Part shown: one piece after another, positions 482 to 14,970 of the stretch
Position numbering within the stretch: position 1 is the stretch's first letter
Layout of the letters: each line of letters begins with the position of its first letter
From: Leptolyngbyaceae cyanobacterium HOT.MB2.61
GTDB taxonomy: Bacteria; Cyanobacteriota; Cyanobacteriia; Leptolyngbyales; Leptolyngbyaceae
Length of the DNA stretch: 32,715 bases
Reading direction: 5' to 3'
NCBI GenBank assembly: GCA_023511615.1
Contig: JAIMBL010000026.1
Span: 1-32,715 of the forward strand
Notes under the pieces: generated by a model
Seen by the model: the letters and a program-made list of their open reading frames with translations, nothing else
Told to the model about the DNA's origin: nothing
The model's database searches: none
Made by a program: the position numbers and the translations under genes

Positions 482-3400
482 TCAGCCCTCCGGATAGGAG
501 AAGATGATGGTGAAGAACTCCGTGGGTAGCGTACCGCCTGGACCTCCATCTGAAATGCTGATCTGGAAGGTATCTGTGGAACCGCCACCGAGCGATCGAT
601 AAACCACCCTTCCGGCATCAATATCTGCCTGGGTAAAGGTTTGACCACTGATCAGTGGTGTCCCATTCAACTCCAGTTGCCCAAAAGCGGCATTGGGGGC
701 GGCAACAAGTTGATAGATAATCTGACTGGGTGTATTATCCACATCCGTTACCTGAAGCACACCTGAACTAATCTCCGTTACCGATGCCACATCACCAGGA
801 ACTTCGATCGTCGGATTAGGCGTTAGCAAAACTGGCGCATCATTTGTTGGCGTGACGTTAATTTCGAGGATACGATTCAGCGTTGCGGTTCCATCGGTAA
901 CTGAATAGAAGAAGGAATCCCTATTCTCAGGCGTTTCGCTACCGTTGTGTTGGTAAGAAATCAAGCCTGTATCGATGTCTGCCTGGGTAAAGGTTTGACC
1001 ATTAACCAGAGCTACACCGCTCCGGAAGAGGGTACCAAACAGAGGTTGTGCCACTAGGGTATAGGTAAGCGGCTGGCTCTCCGGATCGCTGGTCTGTAAG
1101 GTAGACCGGGTAATGGTCGTAATGGCTCCTTCAGAGATAGTCAACGGTCCGTTGGAAACGACCAGCGGTGGATCGTTGACCGGAATAACACCAATGTTGA
1201 ACACGGTTGAACCAATATTGCCGCCAGCGCCATCGCTCACTGTGAAGGTAAAGCTGTCGCTGGTAGTTTCGCTACCGTTATGGCGGTAAGTGACACGGTT
1301 GAGGTTGACATCATTTTGAGTGAAGGTTTGACCCACGCTCAAGTTACTGCCATTTAACCGCACACTACCGCTGGTTGGCAGATTAGTTACGGTGTACCGC
1401 AGTTGGGATGCGGTGTTGTCTGGATCGGTGACCTGCAGCAAGGTACTGCTAATGGTGCCGCTCTGCCCCTCAGTGACTGATAAGGTCTGACGGCTTGCCA
1501 GTACGGGGTTATCGTTGATCGGGTTGACCCGGATATTGAACTGAGCCGTAGTGGGCTGGGGGCCACCATCGTTCACTGTGAATGTAAAGCTGTCGAGGGT
1601 GGTTTCACTGCCGTTATGAATATACCGGATCAGGTTTTGCCCAATGTCTGCTTGGGTAAAGGTGTTACCAGCCAAAAGGGTTGTTCCACTTCTGGTCAGT
1701 ACTCCGTTACTGGCGGCTGCGCCGATGGTGTAGACGATTTCCGCTGTGGTGTTGTCTACATCAGTGGTTCTCAACAAACCATTGCTGACCACCTGGCTGG
1801 CTCCTTCGTTCAGGGTCAGGGTGTTGTTAGTAACCAGAACTGGTGGGTCATTGAAGGCTGTGACGTTGATATCAACGGTACGGGTGACGGGTGTACCCGT
1901 TGCGGCCCCTGTGAAACCATTGTCATTGAGACTAACGGTTAATCGGTCGGAACCGAAGTAGTTAGGGTTGCCTCTGTAAACCAGGCTGGAGAGGGCAGCG
2001 GCGATCGCGTCAATCGTGCCTTCGTAAACGGCACTGGCAGTCCCGTTCGAGCCACTAATAGTAGTCAATCCAGCCGGATTCAGGTTCAGCGTTCCGTTAT
2101 TGACAGATAGGGTCAGCCGCACGGGGTTGGTACCAGAATCCACATCGGTCACAACGATCGCCCTGGCCCCATCAAATGTCAGATCAGTATCTTCGACCAC
2201 GGGCACTGTCCCTGTCGGAAGTGAGAGGAAGACGGGCGGGTCATTAACTGCCGTGACATTAATGCTGAGGGTCTTGGTATCGGTTAATGCACCACCAATT
2301 CCGGTGTTCCCCAGGTCATTGACTGTGATTGTTGCTTCATCCGGTCCGTTATAGTCTTGCAGTCCCTGATAGCGGAGAGTACTCAAGGCCGAGTTAACCG
2401 ATGTGCGGGTACCCGTGATGGTGATGGTAGATGTGCCAGCTCCACTGATAGTTGCAGGTGGAGTGCCGGTCCCAGCGGTAAGCGTTCCCTGGAGAACTGA
2501 TATCGTTACCTCCAGATTGCCGGGTGTGGACTCCCCAGCATCCACATCGGTAACTGAGATGCCGGATAGGGTGATGAGTCCATCCTCCGGCCCCGTACGA
2601 ACACCGGGCGTAATATTCAGAACAGGAGCATCGTTCACCGGATTGATGTTGACGGTCAGGGTTTGGGTGACCGAGAGAGGATTACTGGGTGAATTGCCCT
2701 GATCGCTGACGGTGATCCGAATCTGATCCTGACCATTGATATTGGGCTTGCCCTGATAGCTGAACGTACTCAACGTAGCGTTCAGATCTGCCAGTCTGCC
2801 AGTAAGGGTGACACCATTGCTGTTGTTGCCAGTGACGACCACACTTCCGGTTGGGCTGAAGCCGAGGTTGCCACCTGTTGCGGCTCCGCTGGGACCTAAG
2901 GCCGTCAGGGTCACCCGCAGATTACCATTCCCAGCATCGACATCGTTAATGCTGACACCAGGGATGCCAATGGTGGCATCTTCATCCACCACTTGCGTAC
3001 CTGGCAGGGTCAGGGTTGGAGCGTCGTTGATGGCCGTCACGTTGATCGTGAAGGTCTGAGTGGGTGAGGTATTGACCCCACCGTTATCGATGCCACCGCT
3101 GTCGCGCAGCCTGACCGTCACAATGGCGATCCCGTTAGCATCCTGGGCCAGGGCATAGCTAAGGGTGCCGTTCGGGGCGATCGTGGGTTGGCCAGTGGTG
3201 GTAAACAGGGATGGGTTGTTGTTGGCCACGATGAAGCTGACCGTCTGGTTCGACTCGTTCGGTGGTAGAGGTGTACCCGGTCCCGGACTGATGTTCGTTG
3301 CCCACAGTACCGACTGGGGTGGAGCATCTTCGGCCACCGTAATGTTGGAACCGGGGGTGAAGGTCGGCGCATCGTTCACCGGGTTAACTGTAATGGTGAA

Positions 3401-6400
3401 GATGTAGTCATCCGAGGTATCATCACCGCCGAGGGTGGTTCCACCGCTATCTTGCAAGCTAACCGTTACCGTTGCTGTTCCAAACGCATTGTCAGCCGGG
3501 GTGTAAATCAAATTGCCCGTGTTCGGGTCAATGGTGGGTTGCCCAGCGGTTGTGAACAGGTCAGGGTTGGAGTTGCTGACAATGAAGCTGAGGCTCTGGT
3601 TGGATTCATTCGCCGGACCACGGGAAATATTGGTTGCCCAACCGTTGACAGTCTGGGTTCCCGCATCCTCATTCACCACCTGGTTCGGACCGCCAGTAAA
3701 GGTCGGAGCGTCATTCACTGGACGCACATTGACAGGGATAGTGCGCGTGACGCTCTGAGCACCAGGAGCACCTGTTGCACCCTGGTCGTTCACCGTGATA
3801 GTAATGGTGTCACTGCCATTGTAATCTGGGTTGCCCCGATAGACCAGGTTTGACAGGACGTTTCGGACGCTGGCGATCGCCCCTTGAATCGTCAGGTTGC
3901 TAGCTCCGTTGGTGCTGCTAATAAAGGTTACTCCAGCCGTTGAAGCCAGACTCAGGGTACCATTTTGGGCAGACAGAATGGCTCTCACCGGGCTGCCACC
4001 CGAATCAATATCGGTGGTTTCAATACCGGTGATGGTCAGTGGTGTATCTTCGATCGCAGGCAGAGTGGTCGTTGGAACCGTTAGGGTCGGTCCATCATTG
4101 ACAGCCGCAACCGTAATATTGATCGTACCGTTGGTAGTATTCGTTCCGTCACTGGCTGAAACAACCAGAGCATCAGGACCGCTGAATTCGCTGGCAGGAG
4201 TGTAGATCAGATTATCGAGGGCCGTTTCAACCGCCGTAACCGAGCCTGTCACCGTCACACTGGAAGAATTATTGTTGGTGACCCCAGCTCCGGAGTTCAC
4301 GGTAATGATGCCGTTGGCAACCGTCAGCGTCACAGTGATTGGGTCATTTTCGGCATCGCTGAGCCGAATTCGGTTGGCATTGGAGAAGGTGAGCTGGGTG
4401 TCCTCATCCATAGTTTGAGCCCCGGGCAATGTTAGTGCGGGTGCATCGTTGACGGGAGTGACGCTAATGTTAAATGTGGTCAGGGAAAGATTCCCCGTCG
4501 AACCATCGGAAGCGGTGAAGGCAAAACTATCGCTGGTGGTTTCGCTACCGTCATGACGGTAAGAAAGCTGCCCACTGTTAATGTCTCCCTGAGTAAAAGT
4601 CTGTCCGACTGCTAATGGCGTCGTTCCCAACAACAGGGTGCCGCGGTCAGGAAGATCGCCGAGGGTGTAGGTAACATCATTCGGACCATCGGGGTCAGTC
4701 ACCAACAGAGCAGTGCTGGCGATCGCAGACGAAGCTCCTTCAGATAGAGTCAGACCTGTATTCAGCGAAACTCTGGGTGGGTCATTGACCGGAGTGATGG
4801 TGATGTTGAAGGTATTGGGTCCAACCGCTGGGGAAATGACCCCATCCGAAAGGGTGAAGCTGAAACTATCTGAAACAGTCTCACTGCCGTTATGGGAATA
4901 CCGTAGTTGTCCACTGTTAATATCCGCCTGGGTAAACGTGGTGACCACGCTGCTACCCAGCAGCAATGTGCCACTGGTCGGAGCCGAGGTGACGGAGTAA
5001 ACCAGGCTGGCTGGTAGCGGGTTGTCGTTATCTGTAGCGAGCAGAGAGCCATTGCTAATTTGAACCAATCCGCCTTCCAGCAAACTGACTCCACCGTTGT
5101 TAACCAATACGGGTGCATCATTAACGGGTGTTACATTGATGCTGAAGGTCGTCAGCGACAGGATGCCCGTTGCGGTGCCATCGGAGGCGGTAAAGGTGAA
5201 GCGATCGCTCGTCGTTTCGCTGTCATCGTGAATGTAGGAAAGCTGTCCATTCGCAATGTCACCCTGCGTAAAGGTTTGCCCACCGGTTAACGGCGTGCTT
5301 CCCAAGAGTAAAGTCCCTCGTGTAGGCAGACTGTTAATGGTGTAAGTGACAGGGCTGGGGCCATCGGGGTCAGTCACCAACAGCGCGGTATCGCTGATGG
5401 TTGAAGAAGTCCCTTCGGAGAGGGTCAACCCGGTATTAAGGGAAACTCTAGGGGCATCGTTGACGGGAGCGATCGCAATATTAAAGACATTCGGGCCCAG
5501 CGGTGCCCCAATCACTCCATCCGTAATCGTAAAGCTGAAGGTATCAGAAACCGACTCACCCCCATTGTGGGAGTACCGCAGTTGACCACTGTTCACATCC
5601 GCCTGAGTAAAGGTTGTCACGGGATTTATACCCAGAAACAGGGTACCGTTGGTGGGTGCAGAAGTAACCGAGTACACCAGGCTGGCCGGAGGCGGATTGT
5701 CATTGTCAGTAATTTGCAAAACGCTATTGCTAATCAAGAATGTGCCGCCTTCTGACAGAGAGGCTCCGGTATTCGTCGCCAGCACAGGGGCATCATTGGC
5801 TGGAGTCACCGTGATGCTGAAGGTGGCCGTTGGAATCGCACTGCTAGAGCCGTCTGATGCTGTAAAGGTAAAGCTGTCTGTCAGCGGCGATTCAGAACCA
5901 TTATGTTGATAGGTAATTCGACCCAGGTTATCGATATCGTCCTGGGTAAAGGTTTGACCCACGCTTAAAGGTGTGCCAAACCGATTGAGAGTACCACGAG
6001 TTGGCGTACTGAGGAGAGTATAAACGAGCTGGGGTGGCGGGTTGTCCTGGTCTGTAATGCGCAGCAAGGTGTTACCAATTACAGCCGTGGTACCTTCAGT
6101 CACGTTCAGTCCAGCATTTGTTGCCAGGACTGGGACAAAGTTGGTTCGGTTGACTGTGATATTGAAAGTGGCAGGGCTTCCAGCAGGAATGGTATTAACC
6201 CCATCGGTTACCGTAAAGGTAAAGCTGTCACTATTGGTATTGCTGCCATCGTGGTCGTAGGAAACGGTGCCGTTGTTGATATCAGCCTGGGTGAAAGTGT
6301 TGGTTTGGGTACCATCACGATAGAGAGTACCTCTGGCAGGTCCGGTGACGACAGTGTAGACCACCTGATCCGGCAGGGTCAGAAATTCGGCATCCGTGGC

Positions 6401-8710
6401 CGTCAGTAAGGTTGAGGTAATCCTGGCAGTCGCGTCCTGGCTCACCGTCAGCCCCAGATTCGTTGTCAGAACAGGGGCATCATTCACCGGAGCGACATTG
6501 ATACTGAAGGTGGTCAGCGGCGGAGTCAGGGTGCCTCCGGCACCATCTGAGACCGTAAATACAAAGGTGTCGTTAGTTGTCTCGCTACCGTTGTGACTAT
6601 ACCGCAACCGCGTACTGCTATTGATATCAGCCTGGGTAAAGGTGCTGCCAGCCGAGAGGGTTGTTCCATTCAGCACCAGGCTGCCATTGGCCGGCGGGCT
6701 ATTGAGGCTGTAGACAATTTGCGAGGCCAGTTGCTGTTCAATGTCGGTGACCAACAAGCTATTGCTGGTCAGAACAGTTGCCTGTCCTTCAGTAACTGCA
6801 AGGACCGTATTGCTGACCAAAATAGGCGGATCATTGACCGGAACGATATTAATGGTGAAGGTTGTGTTTCCAATGGTTCCACCTACACCATCGGAAACGC
6901 TAAAGATGAAATTGTCAATCAGAGTTTCTGAGCCATCCTGGGTGTAGGACAATCTACCTGCATTGATATCGGCCTGAGTAAAGGTGCTACCTGCGATGAT
7001 GGCAGCACCGCTCAAACTGAGATTGCCGCGATCGGGCGGATCGACCAGCGTATAGGTAACTTGATCGGCAGAATTGTTATCGTCTGTGACAAGCAGCAGC
7101 GTACTGGCAATTGTCTGCGTGCCGCCCTCACTCAAAGTTAGATTGCTCTTAGTTGCCAAAACGGGCAGGTTGTTTGCCTCTATGTTTAACTCATAGAAAC
7201 TGGCCTCATTGGTTTTGGGGAAAATCCGAATAAAGTAGTTACCCGGATCGAGGTTGGCCGAGATGTTTTCTGGTGCACCCCCTGGATTAGTTGATTGCAG
7301 TGGACTTCCACCAATGACAACGGGATTGCCTATTGAGTCAAGAATTTGAATATCCAGGTCGCCATCTAAGTTCGTGCCGCTGAGACCAGTCAGGGAAAGA
7401 TTCAGGCTAGTGGGGCTACCCAGGAAGAAGCGGTAAAAATCGACTGGATCAGTACTATCAATAGAGTCTCGATAAAAACCATTGCCATTCAATGGACCGA
7501 TAGAGAAACCAGAGGCCCCAGTATTGCCAGCGAGATCGACTCGGGTTGGCGGCAGGTAACGGATGAAAGGAGCCGTTGCCTGGTAATTTAGATCAAGGAC
7601 TGAGACAATATTGGTGAATCCGGCAAAGGTTGTGCCATTTAAGAACCAGACAACATTTTCACCCGTGGCAACGTTACGGAAGAGGATGTCGGGTTTACCG
7701 TCGAAGTTGTAATCGCCCGTGCCTTGAATCTGGTATCTCAAGTCTGGTGCGGCGGGCAGTTCGACGGTTGACACCCGCGCGGTTCCGTTCATCAGCCAGA
7801 TGATATTGCCACCGCCACCGGGAGTGTAATCTCGGAATAAAAGGTCGATGTTGCCATCGTTGTTAAAATCGGCTGTTCCCTGGAGACGGAAGTTGGTGTT
7901 GGGCAGGGACTCAAGTTCGGCGAAGCCACCCGTAAATACCGGGCCGTTCATAAACCAGACCACATTTTGGCCAGTGGCATAGTTTCGCCAGACAAGGTCG
8001 TTTTTGCCATCTTTATTGAGGTCAGCAATTCCGTTAATTTGCCAGTTGAGATCCCCGTTGGGCGGCAGAATGACCGCTGAAGTTAATGCGGCTCCATTCA
8101 TGAGCCAGATGCTGTTTTCTCCGGTGCGGTAGTTGCGCCAAACCACGTCAGCATCGCCATCGCCATCCATATCCCCCGTTGCCTGAACTGTCCAGGCAAG
8201 ATCAGGGGCTGTGGTTGTAAAAGCAAACGATGCCAAGTTTGCCCCCTCCATGAACCAGACAGAGTTTTCACCCGTTGCATAGTTACGCCAGAAAATATCT
8301 GAACGGGCATTACTGTTTGCAGTAACGATGAGGGAGTAGTTAGTGCTGGGGGTCGTGAGCGGGTCTAATGGGTTGGTGGCAGGACCCGGAGAAACATGAA
8401 TATAGTAGGTACCTGCGTCCAGGACGGCGCTGAGCGCTTCAGGGAGTGTTCCTGAATTGAAGGAACTGAGGGCAGCGCCGCCTGCAACGACAACAGCTCC
8501 CGAACTATTGAGGACTTCAACATTTGCGTCTGCACTGAGCCCCCCTAAAACCAGGGTAAAACTGCTGCTTCTGGTAAGCGTGAATCGGTAGTAGTCGCTC
8601 GCATCCAGAACGCTATTTTCTAGCCCAACAAATTCTTGAAAGGTTTGTGAACTGGCAATAGGAAATATCGTCTTTGCAGTGGCAAAAGTATTACCAACAG
8701 TATCAGGCAT
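482..8710 (-). CDS. Giant modular surface/secreted protein (PPC, FG-GAP/VCBS, CSPG and cadherin-like repeats)
   Basis: The product is 2,742 residues. Domains in order: a PPC-like beta-sandwich (about 1-133); five FG-GAP/VCBS-like repeats (about 137-385), each with a (V/I)W(F/L)-(M/L)(N/E)G core, four preceded by calcium-type DxDxDGxxD loops such as DMDGDGDAD; a second PPC-like domain (about 390-512); eight CSPG-type repeats with an FTQ-D-(I/V) signature (about 515-1422); seven cadherin-like repeats with EDxx starts and P(V/I)ND ends (about 1422-2288); and four more CSPG repeats to the C-terminus. No Sec signal peptide and no RTX nonapeptides are visible, so export may use a type I system or another route (inference). 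Such architecture is typical of extracellular adhesion or matrix proteins. The ATG has no clear ribosome-binding site. Many antisense frames in this span are shadows of the repetitive coding sequence. Confidence 0.93.
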   Translation of the reverse strand: MPDTVGNTFATAKTIFPIASSQTFQEFVGLENSVLDASDYYRFTLTRSSSFTLVLGGLSADANVEVLNSSGAVVVAGGAALSSFNSGTLPEALSAVLDAGTYYIHVSPGPATNPLDPLTTPSTNYSLIVTANSNARSDIFWRNYATGENSVWFMEGANLASFAFTTTAPDLAWTVQATGDMDGDGDADVVWRNYRTGENSIWLMNGAALTSAVILPPNGDLNWQINGIADLNKDGKNDLVWRNYATGQNVVWFMNGPVFTGGFAELESLPNTNFRLQGTADFNNDGNIDLLFRDYTPGGGGNIIWLMNGTARVSTVELPAAPDLRYQIQGTGDYNFDGKPDILFRNVATGENVVWFLNGTTFAGFTNIVSVLDLNYQATAPFIRYLPPTRVDLAGNTGASGFSIGPLNGNGFYRDSIDSTDPVDFYRFFLGSPTSLNLSLTGLSGTNLDGDLDIQILDSIGNPVVIGGSPLQSTNPGGAPENISANLDPGNYFIRIFPKTNEASFYELNIEANNLPVLATKSNLTLSEGGTQTIASTLLLVTDDNNSADQVTYTLVDPPDRGNLSLSGAAIIAGSTFTQADINAGRLSYTQDGSETLIDNFIFSVSDGVGGTIGNTTFTINIVPVNDPPILVSNTVLAVTEGQATVLTSNSLLVTDIEQQLASQIVYSLNSPPANGSLVLNGTTLSAGSTFTQADINSSTRLRYSHNGSETTNDTFVFTVSDGAGGTLTPPLTTFSINVAPVNDAPVLTTNLGLTVSQDATARITSTLLTATDAEFLTLPDQVVYTVVTGPARGTLYRDGTQTNTFTQADINNGTVSYDHDGSNTNSDSFTFTVTDGVNTIPAGSPATFNITVNRTNFVPVLATNAGLNVTEGTTAVIGNTLLRITDQDNPPPQLVYTLLSTPTRGTLNRFGTPLSVGQTFTQDDIDNLGRITYQHNGSESPLTDSFTFTASDGSSSAIPTATFSITVTPANDAPVLATNTGASLSEGGTFLISNSVLQITDNDNPPPASLVYSVTSAPTNGTLFLGINPVTTFTQADVNSGQLRYSHNGGESVSDTFSFTITDGVIGAPLGPNVFNIAIAPVNDAPRVSLNTGLTLSEGTSSTISDTALLVTDPDGPSPVTYTINSLPTRGTLLLGSTPLTGGQTFTQGDIANGQLSYIHDDSETTSDRFTFTASDGTATGILSLTTFSINVTPVNDAPVLVNNGGVSLLEGGLVQISNGSLLATDNDNPLPASLVYSVTSAPTSGTLLLGSSVVTTFTQADINSGQLRYSHNGSETVSDSFSFTLSDGVISPAVGPNTFNITITPVNDPPRVSLNTGLTLSEGASSAIASTALLVTDPDGPNDVTYTLGDLPDRGTLLLGTTPLAVGQTFTQGDINSGQLSYRHDGSETTSDSFAFTASDGSTGNLSLTTFNISVTPVNDAPALTLPGAQTMDEDTQLTFSNANRIRLSDAENDPITVTLTVANGIITVNSGAGVTNNNSSSVTVTGSVTAVETALDNLIYTPASEFSGPDALVVSASDGTNTTNGTINITVAAVNDGPTLTVPTTTLPAIEDTPLTITGIETTDIDSGGSPVRAILSAQNGTLSLASTAGVTFISSTNGASNLTIQGAIASVRNVLSNLVYRGNPDYNGSDTITITVNDQGATGAPGAQSVTRTIPVNVRPVNDAPTFTGGPNQVVNEDAGTQTVNGWATNISRGPANESNQSLSFIVSNSNPDLFTTAGQPTIDPNTGNLIYTPADNAFGTATVTVSLQDSGGTTLGGDDTSDDYIFTITVNPVNDAPTFTPGSNITVAEDAPPQSVLWATNISPGPGTPLPPNESNQTVSFIVANNNPSLFTTTGQPTIAPNGTLSYALAQDANGIAIVTVRLRDSGGIDNGGVNTSPTQTFTINVTAINDAPTLTLPGTQVVDEDATIGIPGVSINDVDAGNGNLRVTLTALGPSGAATGGNLGFSPTGSVVVTGNNSNGVTLTGRLADLNATLSTFSYQGKPNINGQDQIRITVSDQGNSPSNPLSVTQTLTVNINPVNDAPVLNITPGVRTGPEDGLITLSGISVTDVDAGESTPGNLEVTISVLQGTLTAGTGTPPATISGAGTSTITITGTRTSVNSALSTLRYQGLQDYNGPDEATITVNDLGNTGIGGALTDTKTLSINVTAVNDPPVFLSLPTGTVPVVEDTDLTFDGARAIVVTDVDSGTNPVRLTLSVNNGTLNLNPAGLTTISGSNGTASAVYEGTIDAIAAALSSLVYRGNPNYFGSDRLTVSLNDNGFTGAATGTPVTRTVDINVTAFNDPPVLVTNNTLTLNEGASQVVSNGLLRTTDVDNTTAEIVYTIGAAASNGVLTRSGTTLLAGNTFTQADIGQNLIRYIHNGSETTLDSFTFTVNDGGPQPTTAQFNIRVNPINDNPVLASRQTLSVTEGQSGTISSTLLQVTDPDNTASQLRYTVTNLPTSGSVRLNGSNLSVGQTFTQNDVNLNRVTYRHNGSETTSDSFTFTVSDGAGGNIGSTVFNIGVIPVNDPPLVVSNGPLTISEGAITTITRSTLQTSDPESQPLTYTLVAQPLFGTLFRSGVALVNGQTFTQADIDTGLISYQHNGSETPENRDSFFYSVTDGTATLNRILEINVTPTNDAPVLLTPNPTIEVPGDVASVTEISSGVLQVTDVDNTPSQIIYQLVAAPNAAFGQLELNGTPLISGQTFTQADIDAGRVVYRSLGGGSTDTFQISISDGGPGGTLPTEFFTIIFSYPEG
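4446..5795 (-). repeat. Two-domain super-repeat inside the giant gene
   Basis: CSPG repeats 5 and 6 (about 5795-5122) and repeats 7 and 8 (about 5121-4446) form two tandem units of roughly 675 bp. Repeat 5 resembles 7 more than 6: both share SLVYSVTSAP and VTTFTQAD. Repeat 6 resembles 8: both share RVSLNTGLTLSEG and FTQGDI. The pattern implies duplication of a two-domain block rather than of single domains. Boundaries are approximate. Confidence 0.75.
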
Positions 8711-8922: not shown

Positions 8923-10278
8923 TCAGTAATTTCGATTTGGGGTTGCCAGGTTGCGAAACTGGGTAAATTGAGACTCAAACAAGAGTTTGACCGTTCCCGT
9001 CGGCCCATTGCGATGTTTGGAGATGATCACTTCTGCGATGCCGCGATCGGGGGTGTCGGGGTTGTAGTACTCATCCCGGTAAAGCATCATAATCAGGTCT
9101 GCATCCTGTTCAATCGCTCCTGACTCTCGTAAATCCGACATCATTGGGCGCTTGTTGGTGCGTGACTCCACACTACGGCTTAATTGCGACAGTGCTATCA
9201 CCGGAACACTCAGCTCCCGTGCCAGACTCTTGAGCGCCCGTGTCACCTTCGATAGCTCCTGGACCCGGTTGTCTCCGCCCCCTTCCATCAACTGTAAGTA
9301 GTCCAGTATAACTAGACCCAGGGCACCTCCCTGCTCGGCCTGAAGCCGTCGTGCTTTTGAGCGCATTTCGGTAATGCTGATACTGGGTGTGTCATCGATA
9401 AAAATTGGCAATTGGGAAAGGGTACTGATAGCATGCCCCAAAGGTTCCCACTCATTCTGGCTGATTCGCCCTGCCCGCAGTCGCCCGCTCTCAATCCGAA
9501 CTTCGCTAGCCAGCAGCCGCTGTACCAGTTGCTCCTTTGACATTTCCAGGCTGAACACGGCAACAGGCAGTTTATGGAAAGCAGCGATATTGCGAGCTAT
9601 GTTGAGGACGAAACTCGTTTTCCCCATCGATGGACGACCCGCCACGATGATCAGGTCTGAACGCTGAAACCCTTGAGTCATTGCATCCAGGTCATAGAAG
9701 CCACAGGATAACCCTGGTAGCACCATTCCCAACGAACGGCTTTCGATGTCAGTAAAGGTATGAGTCAGGATATCAGCCGTTGCCATTAAACCCTGTTGAG
9801 GGCGCTCCTGGGTGATGCTAAAAATCTTCTGCTCCGCTTCATCCAGGACATGCTCTAAGTCAGTGGAAGAGTCATGTCCCAGGTGAGCAATTTCGTTACC
9901 TGCTCGAATGAGCTTGCGGCGCATGTACTTGTCTGTCACCAGCGCCGCGTACTGATCAATGTTGACGGCACTTACAGTACGGTCAACCAGTTGTACCAGC
10001 TTACCTTGTCCACCGACCTTCTCCAGCATCCCCCGATCGCGCAGCCAGGAAGTCATACTCATCAGGTCAGTGGGGTTTCCCTGACTCTGTAAAACCAGCG
10101 CTGCTCGATAAATTTCCTGATGGGCACTTAGATAAAACGCCTCTGGGCGCAGTAAGTCAGCAACCCGGTTAATGGCCTCCGGATCTAACAAGATACCACC
10201 CAAAATCGCTTCCTCTGCCTCAATATTCTGGGGGGGCAGGCGATCGCTGTAGGCCTGAAAATTAAGTTCCTGAACCAT
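8923..10278 (-). CDS. dnaB: Replicative DNA helicase DnaB
   Basis: Hexameric 5'-3' helicase that unwinds DNA at the replication fork and works with DnaG primase. The N-terminal domain begins RLPPQNIEAEEAILGG. The RecA-like domain has a Walker A motif (GRPSMGKTS), a Walker B segment (LVILDYLQLM) and the ALSQLSRSVE motif. From the ATG at 10278 the protein is 451 residues, normal for the family. This start gives the MVQELNF N-terminus expected of cyanobacterial DnaB, although AGGAG lies unusually close to it; a TTG at 10305 is the alternative. The Walker A region is uninterrupted, so there is no intein. The gene lies downstream of rplI but behind a strong terminator, so it probably has its own promoter in 10306-10571, where a LexA-like box occurs. 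Confidence 0.97.
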   Translation of the reverse strand: MVQELNFQAYSDRLPPQNIEAEEAILGGILLDPEAINRVADLLRPEAFYLSAHQEIYRAALVLQSQGNPTDLMSMTSWLRDRGMLEKVGGQGKLVQLVDRTVSAVNIDQYAALVTDKYMRRKLIRAGNEIAHLGHDSSTDLEHVLDEAEQKIFSITQERPQQGLMATADILTHTFTDIESRSLGMVLPGLSCGFYDLDAMTQGFQRSDLIIVAGRPSMGKTSFVLNIARNIAAFHKLPVAVFSLEMSKEQLVQRLLASEVRIESGRLRAGRISQNEWEPLGHAISTLSQLPIFIDDTPSISITEMRSKARRLQAEQGGALGLVILDYLQLMEGGGDNRVQELSKVTRALKSLARELSVPVIALSQLSRSVESRTNKRPMMSDLRESGAIEQDADLIMMLYRDEYYNPDTPDRGIAEVIISKHRNGPTGTVKLLFESQFTQFRNLATPNRNY

Positions 10279-10452
10279 TCTCCTGATTCTTCTGGCAACT
10301 GCCAAACCTGAGGTTTCTACTCGGCCCCTGATAAAGCCAAGCCGTACAATCCTACACTATATCTAGGGCTTTTAGTTGAAGCTTAAAATTTAAGCACTAA
10401 ACCTGGTGTAGGTAGTATAGGTTCTTTCTCCCAAAAGCTTGATTTGTCTATT

Positions 10453-10466
10453 CGTACCTTTGTACT
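10453..10466 (-). promoter_or_regulatory. LexA-like box upstream of dnaB
   Basis: The minus strand reads AGTACAAAGGTACG, which fits the cyanobacterial LexA consensus RGTACNNNDGTWCB (recalled from Anabaena work). It lies 175 nt upstream of the dnaB start and downstream of the rplI terminator, in the region that must hold dnaB's own promoter. In a manual scan of GTAC sites, only this one and the site before the parM-like gene had GTWC at the right spacing. About 0.6 such pairs are expected by chance, so support is moderate at best. Confidence 0.4.
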
Positions 10467-11303: not shown

Positions 11304-11564
11304 TCAAAGCCCAAGAAGTTCGTCTAACGCATCCAGCGCTTCGCATCTAATCGAAGTAGATGCTTCGACTGCTGCGATCGGGGTTTGGATGCCCCAGTTT
11401 GCTGTTTCCTCAACTACCCGACGTGGTCCACTCAGGTACTCATCTGCATATCGACGGAAGACAGCCTCCACTGCGGCTCGTGGATTTTTCAGGCCCCACT
11501 CTGCAGCAATCAGGCTGGCCTTCTCCAACACGTCTCGGCTGAGCCTTACTTTGTTGTCATACAT
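11304..11564 (-). CDS. Small ribbon-helix-helix-like protein, candidate ParR partner of the ParM-like actin
   Basis: An 86-residue protein encoded 13 bp downstream of the parM-like gene, so surely co-transcribed. The N-terminal half fits a ribbon-helix-helix fold: a short strand (KVRLS, 5-9), helix A (about 10-23), a turn (LKNPR, 25-29) and helix B (about 30-44). Residues 23-34 (WGLKNPRAAVEA) recur at 57-68 as WGIQTPIAAVEA, an internal duplication with a 34-residue period. The C-terminus is acidic and leucine-rich (DALDELLGL), which could be a filament-binding tail. In plasmid type II segregation the gene after parM encodes ParR, an RHH protein that binds parC. Fold and role are inferred from pattern and context; I do not recognise the exact family. 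Confidence 0.8.
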   Translation of the reverse strand: MYDNKVRLSRDVLEKASLIAAEWGLKNPRAAVEAVFRRYADEYLSGPRRVVEETANWGIQTPIAAVEASTSIRCEALDALDELLGL

Positions 11565-11577
11565 TGCGATACTCCAT

Positions 11578-12588
11578 TCAAAAACTTAACTGTGCTCCGT
11601 TGAGAATGGGAAACAAACCCCGCACATTGGCAAATTGGGGGTCACCCATAACTGCGAACAGTTTGCGCCCTTGCAGTCGCTCCGAGATCAGGTGAGAACC
11701 ACCGCCTGTAACCAGGAAACGGGTTACCCGTGCCATATAGGGAGTGTACTGGGCTCGTACCGTTTGAAAGATGCCTTTAAACCAGGGATCGAGGTGTTCT
11801 TCCAGCCAGGGCAACCAGGACAGGCCAGTATCGGCATAGACGTGCCCGGCTCGAAAACCATCCATAACAATGCTGGGGTCTGCCGAAGTCCCAAGAGCAT
11901 CAGTCAGACGGCGATCGAAACTGATGGAGGTTGCCAGTTCGTAGGTGCCGCCTCGATCCATCACGTTTTCGTCGATGACTTCACCTTCGGCATCCACCAG
12001 ACGGGTCAACCAGGTACCCCCTCCAATGTCCACTACAATCGTGTAACCACTCTCGGGAATCAGCCCCATCCGTCGGGCATAGTGGTAAGCCCCCATTCCT
12101 TCCCGCTCAACTTCAACCCGTTCAACCAAAACCCGATAATCGATACCGTTGCGTTTGAATTCGTGCATTCCTAAAAGCTGCTGTCGAATGGCATCTTCGC
12201 TTTTGACCGGGTCTGGGGTTGAGGCATAAACGCTGAGGGTAAATTCGGTGGTGTTATCCCAGGGTTCGAGGCAGGCATAGAGGTGGAGTCGTGACAGTTC
12301 AACTTTGTTTTCAATCACGGTTTGCTGCTGCCGACGGTATTTGTAGGCCTGCCCACCAAAGTGAAAGCGAGTACCATCGGGCAGTTCAACCAGAGGAGAC
12401 GCTTCGGAGTAGCGGACGGAGTCCCGTCCCTGGGGAAGTTGAAACCGGACGGAGCGAATGGCTTTCGGGTGCCCCACCCCATCCCAAAATTTGAGGTCGT
12501 AGTTACCCGCATCCAGGGCCAGGATGCGACTAGTAAGAGAATTGGCAGATTCTTTTTTAGCTCTCGCCTGTCGGGTAGCGGTTGTCAT
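11578..12588 (-). CDS. ParM/StbA-like actin-family ATPase
   Basis: A 336-residue actin-fold ATPase that probably polymerises with ATP. The phosphate-1 motif is LDAGNYDLK (25-33), phosphate-2 is VVDIGGGTW (185-193), and the adenosine motif is FLVTGGGSHL (291-300). A basic, disordered-looking N-terminus (1-20) precedes the fold. The start at 12588 has a GAGGA ribosome-binding site. Plasmid homologues push replicated DNA apart; chromosomal members in cyanobacteria lack a settled role. The gene heads a two-gene operon with a ParR-like protein. Its promoter has good -35/-10 elements at 12690-12662 and overlaps a LexA-like box, suggesting induction by DNA damage. No replication initiator or transposase is nearby, so an integrated plasmid is not evident. 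Confidence 0.88.
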   Translation of the reverse strand: MTTATRQARAKKESANSLTSRILALDAGNYDLKFWDGVGHPKAIRSVRFQLPQGRDSVRYSEASPLVELPDGTRFHFGGQAYKYRRQQQTVIENKVELSRLHLYACLEPWDNTTEFTLSVYASTPDPVKSEDAIRQQLLGMHEFKRNGIDYRVLVERVEVEREGMGAYHYARRMGLIPESGYTIVVDIGGGTWLTRLVDAEGEVIDENVMDRGGTYELATSISFDRRLTDALGTSADPSIVMDGFRAGHVYADTGLSWLPWLEEHLDPWFKGIFQTVRAQYTPYMARVTRFLVTGGGSHLISERLQGRKLFAVMGDPQFANVRGLFPILNGAQLSF

Positions 12589-12650
12589 AGATTCCTCGCT
12601 TATACTGATTCCTGGCGGTGAGTTTTGGGTCGTTCTCGATTGTCCCCATC

Positions 12651-12664
12651 AGTACACATGTACT
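12651..12664 (-). promoter_or_regulatory. LexA-like box over the parM-like promoter
   Basis: The minus strand reads AGTACATGTGTACT. AGTACA and TGTACT are inverted arms around two bases, and the whole fits RGTACNNNDGTWCB on both strands. It overlaps the last three bases of the -10 hexamer and covers the predicted transcription start, as expected for a repressor site. The match and position are seen directly; LexA binding is inferred from the recalled consensus. Confidence 0.6.
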
Positions 12665-12690
12665 ATACAGGGTCCATGAATCTTTTGCAA
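12662..12690 (-). promoter_or_regulatory. Sigma-70-type promoter of the parM-like operon
   Basis: On the minus strand the -35 is TTGCAA (12690-12685, 4 of 6) and the -10 is TATAGT (12667-12662, 5 of 6), separated by 17 nt. The predicted start of transcription is near 12655, leaving a leader of about 66 nt before the ATG at 12588. The -10 abuts and overlaps the LexA-like palindrome. Confidence 0.65.
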
Positions 12691-12732
12691 GGGATCTGGC
12701 AAAGTTCTCTAAAGCTCTACTCTCATCACCTG

Positions 12733-13506
12733 CTATAGAACTGAGTCCCCGGTTTTCACAACCTTGCCTGCCTGGGAGGGGGGAATGACTGTGTTCACCG
12801 CCAGTCGATAGAAATGGTTAAATCGAGTGGGATTTGTCCAGGCTGGAAGGGTTTCTTTGCGTCTGGAGGTAAAGATCTTCTGAAAGCCAGGGTAGGTCTG
12901 GCCTGTGAGCGCGTCTCGTGTGATGACCACGCAGCGTTGACAGGGGTTGATTCCTTCCAACTGAACGGCTCCAATTTGAAATGGAAGGGGGCTATCTACC
13001 TCATCAAACAGGCGATCTTCCCAGAAAGGTTCAGTATCAGCAATTTCAAGATTTGTTCGAAAGCGCCGCCGGGTGTCTTCTAAGCTTAAGCCTGGAAACC
13101 AATCGGCTACGGTTTGCAGGGTTGCTGTGCTGATGACGGTTGGGCCGGGTGAGAGGGTGTCGTCGGGAAAACCCATTTCCAGGTTTTGCAGCAATTGGAC
13201 TGGAAAGCCAAAATACTCACTCAACCAGGTTTCCAGAGCAGCACGATCGCCCTCCAGATGAAAAGTTTCAGTCTCAGAAGTGCCTTCAACCCGAAGGGAG
13301 ACCGTGCGGGCTACCAGATCAAACGTAGAGCGCAGGCGATGAACATTGGCATTGCGCTTACCATTCACAAAATTGCCCTGAGTGTCGATTATGACGAATT
13401 CGCGATCGCCCTTAAGTGCCCCACTCTTCAGTACAGTTGCTGCCTGAACCCGCACTCCATCCAGCGACTTAATCGGAAAAATAGAAATCTGGGCCAGGTG
13501 GGGCAT
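12733..13506 (-). CDS. MOSC domain-containing protein
   Basis: A 257-residue protein from the ATG at 13506. The N-terminal beta-barrel domain begins ISIFPIKSLDGVRV and contains GDREFVIID. The MOSC domain follows, with FRTNLEI, the cysteine pair of NPCQRCVVITRD and a C-terminal NTVIPPSQAGKVVKTGD segment. Relatives include the mARC and YcbX molybdenum-cofactor proteins, in which a conserved cysteine ligates molybdenum; which cysteine would do so here is not established. The upstream in-frame start at 13566 would overlap chorismate mutase by 46 nt and add residues unlike the family, so I prefer 13506. It follows aroH by 14 bp and probably shares its transcript. Substrate unknown. Confidence 0.9.
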   Translation of the reverse strand: MPHLAQISIFPIKSLDGVRVQAATVLKSGALKGDREFVIIDTQGNFVNGKRNANVHRLRSTFDLVARTVSLRVEGTSETETFHLEGDRAALETWLSEYFGFPVQLLQNLEMGFPDDTLSPGPTVISTATLQTVADWFPGLSLEDTRRRFRTNLEIADTEPFWEDRLFDEVDSPLPFQIGAVQLEGINPCQRCVVITRDALTGQTYPGFQKIFTSRRKETLPAWTNPTRFNHFYRLAVNTVIPPSQAGKVVKTGDSVL

Positions 13507-14130: not shown

Positions 14131-14970
14131 TCAAGGTCGGTAAAGCCAGAGGGGAAGTCCATTGGTTTCCAGCTCAAATTCCAACCATTCCATTCCGGCG
14201 GCCACTCCTGATAGCACCGTTAATTGGCTAAAAGCGCTCTGCTTACTGGAAAACACCCGATTGACAATGGACTTGCGCTCTCCCAGAGTGATGCACCGAG
14301 TTTTTTCAGGATCTAACCCAGCCAGTTCTGCGGCCCAGCGACGGGCATCCTCCTCAGTGCCGAGACGATCTACAATTCCCAGTTCCAGGGCTTGTTGCCC
14401 GGTAAAGATGCGCCCATCAGCAAAGCTGTGGACCGTTTCAACAGCCAGTTTTCGGGCTTCGGCAACGGTTTGCACAAACTGTTGATAACTGATGTCAATC
14501 AACTCTTGCAGAATATCTTTTTCCGGGTCGGTGAGTTCCCGGTCAAAGGCCAGAATGTCTTTGTAGGGGCCGGATTTAATCACCTTGAACGAAACCCCGA
14601 TTTTCTCCAGCAGCCGTTCCAGGTTGTTGCCGCGCAGGATGACGCCAATACTGCCTGTGATGGTGCCAGGATTGGCCATGATGTAGGGAGCGCCCATACC
14701 AACGTAGACTCCACCGGAGGCGGAGATATTGCCAAAGCTGGCAACGACTTTCGTTTTATCCTGGAGCCGCTTGAGGGCAGTATAAATTTCCTGGGAATCA
14801 CCAACTGTACCACCAGGACTGTCGATCCGCACCAGCAGAGCCGGAAATTTGCGTTCTTCAACCAGCTTCAAGGATTCTAGAACGCGCTTACGGGTTGAGC
14901 CGGCGATCGCTCCTGTAATTTCAATGCGAGCAATTTGTTTACGAGCGCGAGACTTGAGAAACCAAACCAT
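14131..14970 (-). CDS. sppA: Signal peptide peptidase SppA, short form
   Basis: Membrane-associated serine protease that degrades cleaved signal peptides. The 279-residue protein matches the short SppA form. It has RIDSPGGTVGDSQEIY, then the nucleophile segment NISASGGVYVG with Ser85 as likely catalytic serine, and SGPYKDILAFDRELT with Lys137 as likely base. A classical N-terminal membrane anchor is not obvious (MVWFLKSRARKQIARIEI), so it may attach peripherally. No ribosome-binding site is seen at 14970; heptamer repeats lie directly upstream. It precedes aroH in the same direction across a 205-bp gap. Confidence 0.94.
   Translation of the reverse strand: MVWFLKSRARKQIARIEITGAIAGSTRKRVLESLKLVEERKFPALLVRIDSPGGTVGDSQEIYTALKRLQDKTKVVASFGNISASGGVYVGMGAPYIMANPGTITGSIGVILRGNNLERLLEKIGVSFKVIKSGPYKDILAFDRELTDPEKDILQELIDISYQQFVQTVAEARKLAVETVHSFADGRIFTGQQALELGIVDRLGTEEDARRWAAELAGLDPEKTRCITLGERKSIVNRVFSSKQSAFSQLTVLSGVAAGMEWLEFELETNGLPLWLYRP

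Follow-up and report, generated by a model that had tools for sequence, protein, structure and literature searches.

Results

The analysed window, by which we mean the whole stretch of 32,715 nucleotides, carries on its minus strand a gene for a ParM-like actin homolog of 336 aa (11578..12588), followed after 13 bp by a gene for an 86-aa ParR-like partner protein (11304..11564). Upstream of the two genes, a consensus scan places a -35 hexamer TTGCAA (12685..12690) and a -10 hexamer TATAGT (12662..12667) on the same strand, separated by a 17-nt spacer. A LexA-type operator palindrome, AGTACATGTGTACT (12651..12664, listed without strand), was assigned by pattern match and by its conservation in orthologous promoters, and shares three bases with the -10. 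A second conserved cis-element, TGGGGACAA (12640..12648, minus strand), lies 2 bp downstream of the palindrome and is an exact match to its motif.

The larger protein scores 27.8 bits against PF17989 ALP_N (cut-off 26.3) and matches phrog_691, the profile of a phage partition protein family. Its AF2 model (pLDDT 84.5) resembles CorM (Z 29.0), Ta0583 (28.4), Dh-cParM1 (26.9), Alp7A (26.6) and Cbc-ParM (25.4) in fold, with chains of Hsp70, MreB and MamK next in the ranking at Z of about 21 to 22. Because these last proteins match as well, fold alone is no proof of function. The ParM-type nucleotide motifs (ALDAGNYDLK, DIGGGTW and the TGG columns) read as conserved in the alignment. NCBIfam searches with the actin-like protein and with its partner gave weak matches, far below cut-off.

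With a threshold of E 0.001, homologs of the actin-like protein are present in 40 of the 42 genomes of its own family, a number that falls to 39 at E 1e-60. Of 386 genomes drawn from the whole phylum, 6 have a match at E 1e-40, and the window genome is one of these. Named genomes were scanned as well and contributed 70 loci, distributed among Stenomitos, Tildeniella, Oculatella, Myxacorys, Nodosilinea, Phormidesmis and Leptolyngbya, among others. In a second genome of the same genus (G025) the copy sits on a 6.4-Mb contig, and the operon is therefore taken to be chromosomal. This location, together with the ALP_N and fold matches, bears out the original prediction of a chromosomal, ParM-like operon. 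The idea that this copy came from a phage was also considered and found to be unsupported, as rplI and dnaB lie next door and a search of a phage collection at E 1e-5 gave no match to it.

The small partner gene stands beside the ParM-like gene in 66 of the 70 named loci; among the four loci without it, L130 runs into a contig end and L191 contains a gene fragment. The protein has the layout of a ParR, with a well-conserved, RHH-like N-terminus (DNKVRLSxDVLEKA...WGLKNARAAVEAVFR in the alignment), a variable linker and a conserved C-terminal helix, the end of which reads CEALDxLDxLLxL. Its structure model contains helices at residues 10-23, 28-44 and 75-84. The RHH assignment is weakly indicated by the sequence pattern and by weak fold matches: Foldseek with the partner model had no match at E 0.001; plant TCP-type transcription factor domains head its list at E of about 0.7 or more, and NikR and Arc stand below them at E 3 to 6. 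Likewise, the sequence profile of the partner reaches CopG at E 1, ranked under Lon protease and an archaeal histone, and Pfam gave no match for the window protein.

TTGCAA-17-TATAGT (12690 to 12662, minus strand) is the sole promoter returned by the consensus scan of 12560-12800, with 0.2 expected in shuffles. The 14-bp palindrome AGTACATGTGTACT fits RGTACNNNDGTWCB read on either strand; its first three bases (AGT) form part of the -10, and it spans the predicted start region. Both the overlap with the -10 of this promoter and the fit to the cyanobacterial LexA consensus had been claimed in the original prediction, and the promoter scan and pattern match confirm them. The operator class, AGTACWNWTGTACT or RGTACNNNDGTWCB as the Nostoc LexA consensus, is itself in print (PMC3091678).

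By itself, the motif match is weak evidence for a LexA site in this genome. RGTACNNNDGTWCB occurs three times in the window versus 0.27 times expected, a number reached in 1 of 100 shuffles, and two of these three matches are the same palindrome counted once on each strand. Across the 5.29 Mb of the genome there are 59 matches versus 39 for the reversed control, an enrichment of about 1.5-fold, and among the matches listed the strict form AGTACNNNNGTACT is found in 3 places, with about 5 expected in random sequence. Since the motif class is barely enriched genome-wide, the claim is carried by the place of the palindrome over the -10 and by its conservation in orthologous promoters.

The search for the palindrome in those promoters had been put forward as a check on the original prediction, and the palindrome is found there. 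Sufficient upstream sequence was available for 67 of the 70 named loci, and 250 bp of each was scored with a matrix of 35 distinct published cyanobacterial LexA boxes. A score of at least 11 was reached in 63 of these 67 promoters, which come from related species and do not count as independent events, versus 14 of 1285 background tiles. In 49 of the 67 loci, the 200 bp before the gene contain the strict pattern [AG]GT[AT]CNNNNGT[AT]C[TC], versus 6 of 1581 200-bp tiles drawn from the same named loci; in these 49 upstreams the right half-site, which lies outside the -10, is kept. A first ortholog set of 40 loci, whose genomes are partly duplicated among the named loci, gave the box by pattern in 32 of 39 upstreams, L022 having no upstream and the pattern match of L049, a different site, being left out of the count. 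By reading, L013 to L017 and L049 carry AGTACNNNNATAC[TC] and L048 a near variant, and in genus g18 the right half-site is degenerate (ATAC).

The overlap of -10 and box, TAxxGT[AT]C, occurs in 39 of the 67 named upstreams, in L181 away from the box. The four central bases of the box differ between orthologous promoters, and the window neighbours dnaB, rplI, a MOSC gene, chorismate mutase and the 279-aa gene at 14131 were found at none of the 70 named loci (E 1e-8). These two observations suggest that the box travels with the operon. The box is missing upstream of two Symploca loci (L188 and L189, 53% identity), although lexA is preceded by one in their genomes. In L183 and L184 it is possible that a second LexA-like site lies near the -35. 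Taken as a whole, the conservation makes for strong evidence, and the reading of the site as a likely LexA operator is well supported at the level of sequence.

The second element shows a conservation of its own. Sequences of the form [TC]GGG[GT]AC[AG], on either strand and within 220 bp, occur in 61 of 66 upstreams of operons whose partner has the NKxR strand, versus 23 of 603 background tiles. Among the 7 other upstreams, the element is absent from three with a diverged NKxR strand (two of them close relatives) and from three with no detected partner, and present in L130, at the contig end. A second GGG stands exactly 20 bp upstream of the element in 11 of 23 non-redundant leaders, with about 0.2 expected; only this 20-bp spacing stood up, the 10-bp signal in the leader being weak and no regular 10-bp repeat array being found there. 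We infer that the GGG[G/T]ACA element is a candidate binding site of the small partner. In Nodosilinea, GGTACAACCGTTCC had been considered as a second LexA box and was dropped, as it overlaps the TGGGTACA form of this element.

Two LexA proteins of this genome, encoded at C346 and C26, exceed the NCBIfam lexA cut-off, and the lexA gene at C346 has GGTACAGGTGTTCT upstream. Among the relatives, a box of the same class, as scored by the matrix, precedes lexA in 30 of 30 upstreams of a first set (the best 30 of 43 genomes with a match) and in 27 of 29 of a second (the best 30 of 32, L200 having no upstream). The recA upstreams reach the matrix score in 4 of 30 cases (L092-L121, the best 30 of 42 genomes). 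With lexA boxed and recA mostly without a box, the predicted regulon is not the textbook one. The operon box is kept in G012, G009, G029 and G032, each with a single LexA match, and in G003 (L021), where the LexA-like matches are only 43-45% identical. Box-like sites are also kept in G426 (L130) and G435 (L154), in which no LexA match was found at E 1e-30; missing contigs or incomplete assemblies may account for the absent LexA in these last three genomes.

In an alignment of 61 LexA rows, of which 60 are from the relatives, with the main LexA of this genome counted among them, and one is its C26 paralog, every row retains the protease-site Ser and Lys. The expected cleavage pair, positioned by alignment, is Ala-Gly in 41 rows and Ala-Thr in 20; Ala-Gly is the pair described for LexA in PMC3091678. 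The main LexA of this genome has Ala-Thr at the expected bond, and the C26 paralog Ala-Gly. Autocleavage is thus possibly altered or lost in the Ala-Thr proteins (L009/L062 and relatives).

The genes next to ten pattern matches in this cyanobacterial genome were also inspected. Directly upstream of an integron integrase gene (TIGR02249, 456.8 bits, cut-off 265) lies AGTACAAGTGTTCT (L001, G000:C12:14514-14527), the SOS control of such integrases being the subject of PMC3108266, and AGTACATGTGTTCT precedes a Rad50/SbcC-like ATPase gene, sbcC being a putative LexA target in two Nostocales (PMC3091678). Other boxed neighbours, namely a bilin reductase, phycobilisome genes and a polyketide cyclase-like gene, have no evident SOS link, and the same applies to one pattern match far upstream of a gyrA-like gene.

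Discussion

Our findings point toward LexA as the repressor that, with good probability, shuts the promoter of this chromosomal ParM/ParR-like operon. The LexA reading of the original prediction holds as regards the type of site, its conservation and the chromosomal ParM-like operon, while the Ala-Thr pair of the main LexA speaks against the simple SOS induction that it implied. Control by LexA is likely, and induction of the operon by damage only plausible. In the model that we propose, LexA seated on the palindrome would block RNA polymerase, and its inactivation, through cleavage after DNA damage or by another route, would allow the filament protein and its adaptor to be made. The adaptor would probably bind the GGGGACA element through its RHH-like N-terminal part and would probably contact the filament, in the fashion of ParR, through its C-terminal helix. 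Possible tasks of the filament during recovery would be the movement or holding of chromosomal DNA, or an effect on cell shape.

LexA might also bind this promoter without being a damage switch, answering to another signal such as salt stress, with the operon serving ordinary growth or cell shape. The Ala-Thr bond of this LexA and the scarcity of boxed recA genes are consistent with such a role, and so is the description of Synechocystis LexA as a non-SOS regulator with a reported salt-stress response (PMC7567884, PMC4759255). In the same line, cell shape is affected by FcmB, which is derived from ParM and encoded on the chromosome (PMC12645912). However, the protease-site residues are kept in every LexA row and Ala-Gly in the larger number of them, and the boxed genes of this genome include the Rad50/SbcC-like gene and the integron integrase. 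We regard this alternative as less likely than not. A role of the operon in cell shape, by analogy with FcmB, is possible.

Autorepression from parC is common among ParR proteins. The palindrome could accordingly be the operator of the partner itself, its likeness to a LexA box being the result of convergence. The RHH-like partner, the second conserved element 2 bp from the palindrome and the retention of the box in G003, G426 and G435, where no clear main LexA was found, would agree with this autoregulation. Nevertheless, the same half-sites recur upstream of the lexA genes of relatives and, in this genome, before the integron integrase and the Rad50/SbcC-like gene. Moreover, L183 and L184, in which the strand of the partner is diverged, keep the box and lack the GGGGACA element, as expected if that element were the site of the partner. 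Autoregulation through the palindrome is, on this evidence, improbable.

It is very doubtful that the operon is a local variant of the CorMR/FcmBC system for cell shape. We take CorM (Anabaena PCC 7120; PDB 9rmi) and FcmB (Nostoc punctiforme) to be members of the same family. CorM is the best structural match of the actin-like protein, at 2.9 A over 294 residues, and both systems occur in filamentous cyanobacteria and have a partner gene downstream of a ParM-derived one, as with FcmB and FcmC of N. punctiforme (PMC12645912). Orthology was nonetheless dropped on sequence grounds, given the low identity to CorM, the different partner and the lack of a box. With a stretch of CorM as query, identity does not exceed 31% in the 19 family-f1 genomes that were searched, and this genome gives no match at E 1e-8, whereas identity is 81 to 94% in 8 of 8 genomes of f7, which is inferred from the source organism of CorM to be the heterocyst-forming group. 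The open frames that follow corM, compared by reading, are 149 to 179 aa long and differ in sequence, and the box is present in 0 of 8 corM upstreams of 400 bp each. Conversely, the actin profile of the present operon has a match in 2 of the 8 f7 genomes, at a best E of 2e-27.

Finally, the idea that the palindrome is a chance match, or a mere palindromic extension of TATAGT under -10 constraint, is compatible with the lack of genome-wide enrichment of the strict motif but was discarded as scarcely credible, in view of the right half-site kept outside the -10 and of strict-pattern and matrix counts far above those of the background tiles.

Several known systems come close to the reading that we favour, LexA control of a ParM/ParR-like operon. 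The cyanobacterial LexA regulons share its operator class and a boxed lexA (PMC3091678), and differ in that recA is mostly without a box here; the words ParM and actin are absent from the main text of that study. The cParM of Desulfitobacterium and Clostridium (PMC12270681) is alike in its ParM fold (Dh-cParM1, 8x1i), chromosomal location and ParR partner, but belongs to a different phylum and is 16% identical in the structural alignment, and the main text of that paper mentions neither LexA nor SOS. AlpC/AlpA of the C. glutamicum prophage CGP3 likewise join an actin-like filament to a DNA adaptor and are induced by mitomycin C; they are, however, prophage genes, and those described as directly LexA-controlled are other genes of the prophage and not alpAC (PMC4446434). 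The best match in a plasmid collection is the ParM of Allocoleopsis franciscana PCC 7113 pMIC7113.05 (NC_019741.1), with 47.9% identity over 99%, and the product of the gene that follows it ends in NALDALLSA. Unlike the present operon it is plasmid-borne, and by eye its upstream has no LexA-type box; therefore, the operator may have come with the move to the chromosome or after it.

ParM filaments, known from plasmids, have recently been recognised on a few chromosomes as well, where their roles are unclear, and a conserved LexA-type switch offers a direct clue to when the operon is used. A filamentous cyanobacterium has many chromosome copies. As a tentative proposal, to which we give somewhat less than even credence, the operon may illustrate a third fate of ParM, namely that of a domesticated chromosomal ParMR under LexA, which would form an actin-like spindle only after DNA damage and separate or hold chromosome copies during repair. 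If true, this fate would stand beside plasmid partition and the cell shaping by CorM/FcmB in cyanobacteria. The LexA switch on such an operon, if true, would connect the SOS response of filamentous bacteria with an active, filament-driven handling of DNA or control of shape, and a cytoskeletal gene would join the cyanobacterial LexA regulon. A full-text search of published articles returned no LexA-controlled cyanobacterial ParM operon, and neither did a word search of the main texts of PMC3091678, PMC12645912, PMC12270681, PMC13416735 and PMC4446434.

Some minor observations were made along the way. The first of the start codons listed for dnaB (8923-10305) has, about 150 bp upstream of it, a second match to the LexA consensus in the window, AGTACAAAGGTACG (10453-10466, minus strand), with a lower matrix score (10.3). 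Elsewhere in the genome, at L059 (G000:C100:9632-9645), the LexA-type sequence AGTACATTTGTACG stands where a listed open frame, one with a CopG/RHH domain (PF01402), begins. Further along the window, an open reading frame of 2742 aa (482-8710, minus strand) is composed, by eye, of many similar repeats and probably encodes a secreted or surface repeat protein.
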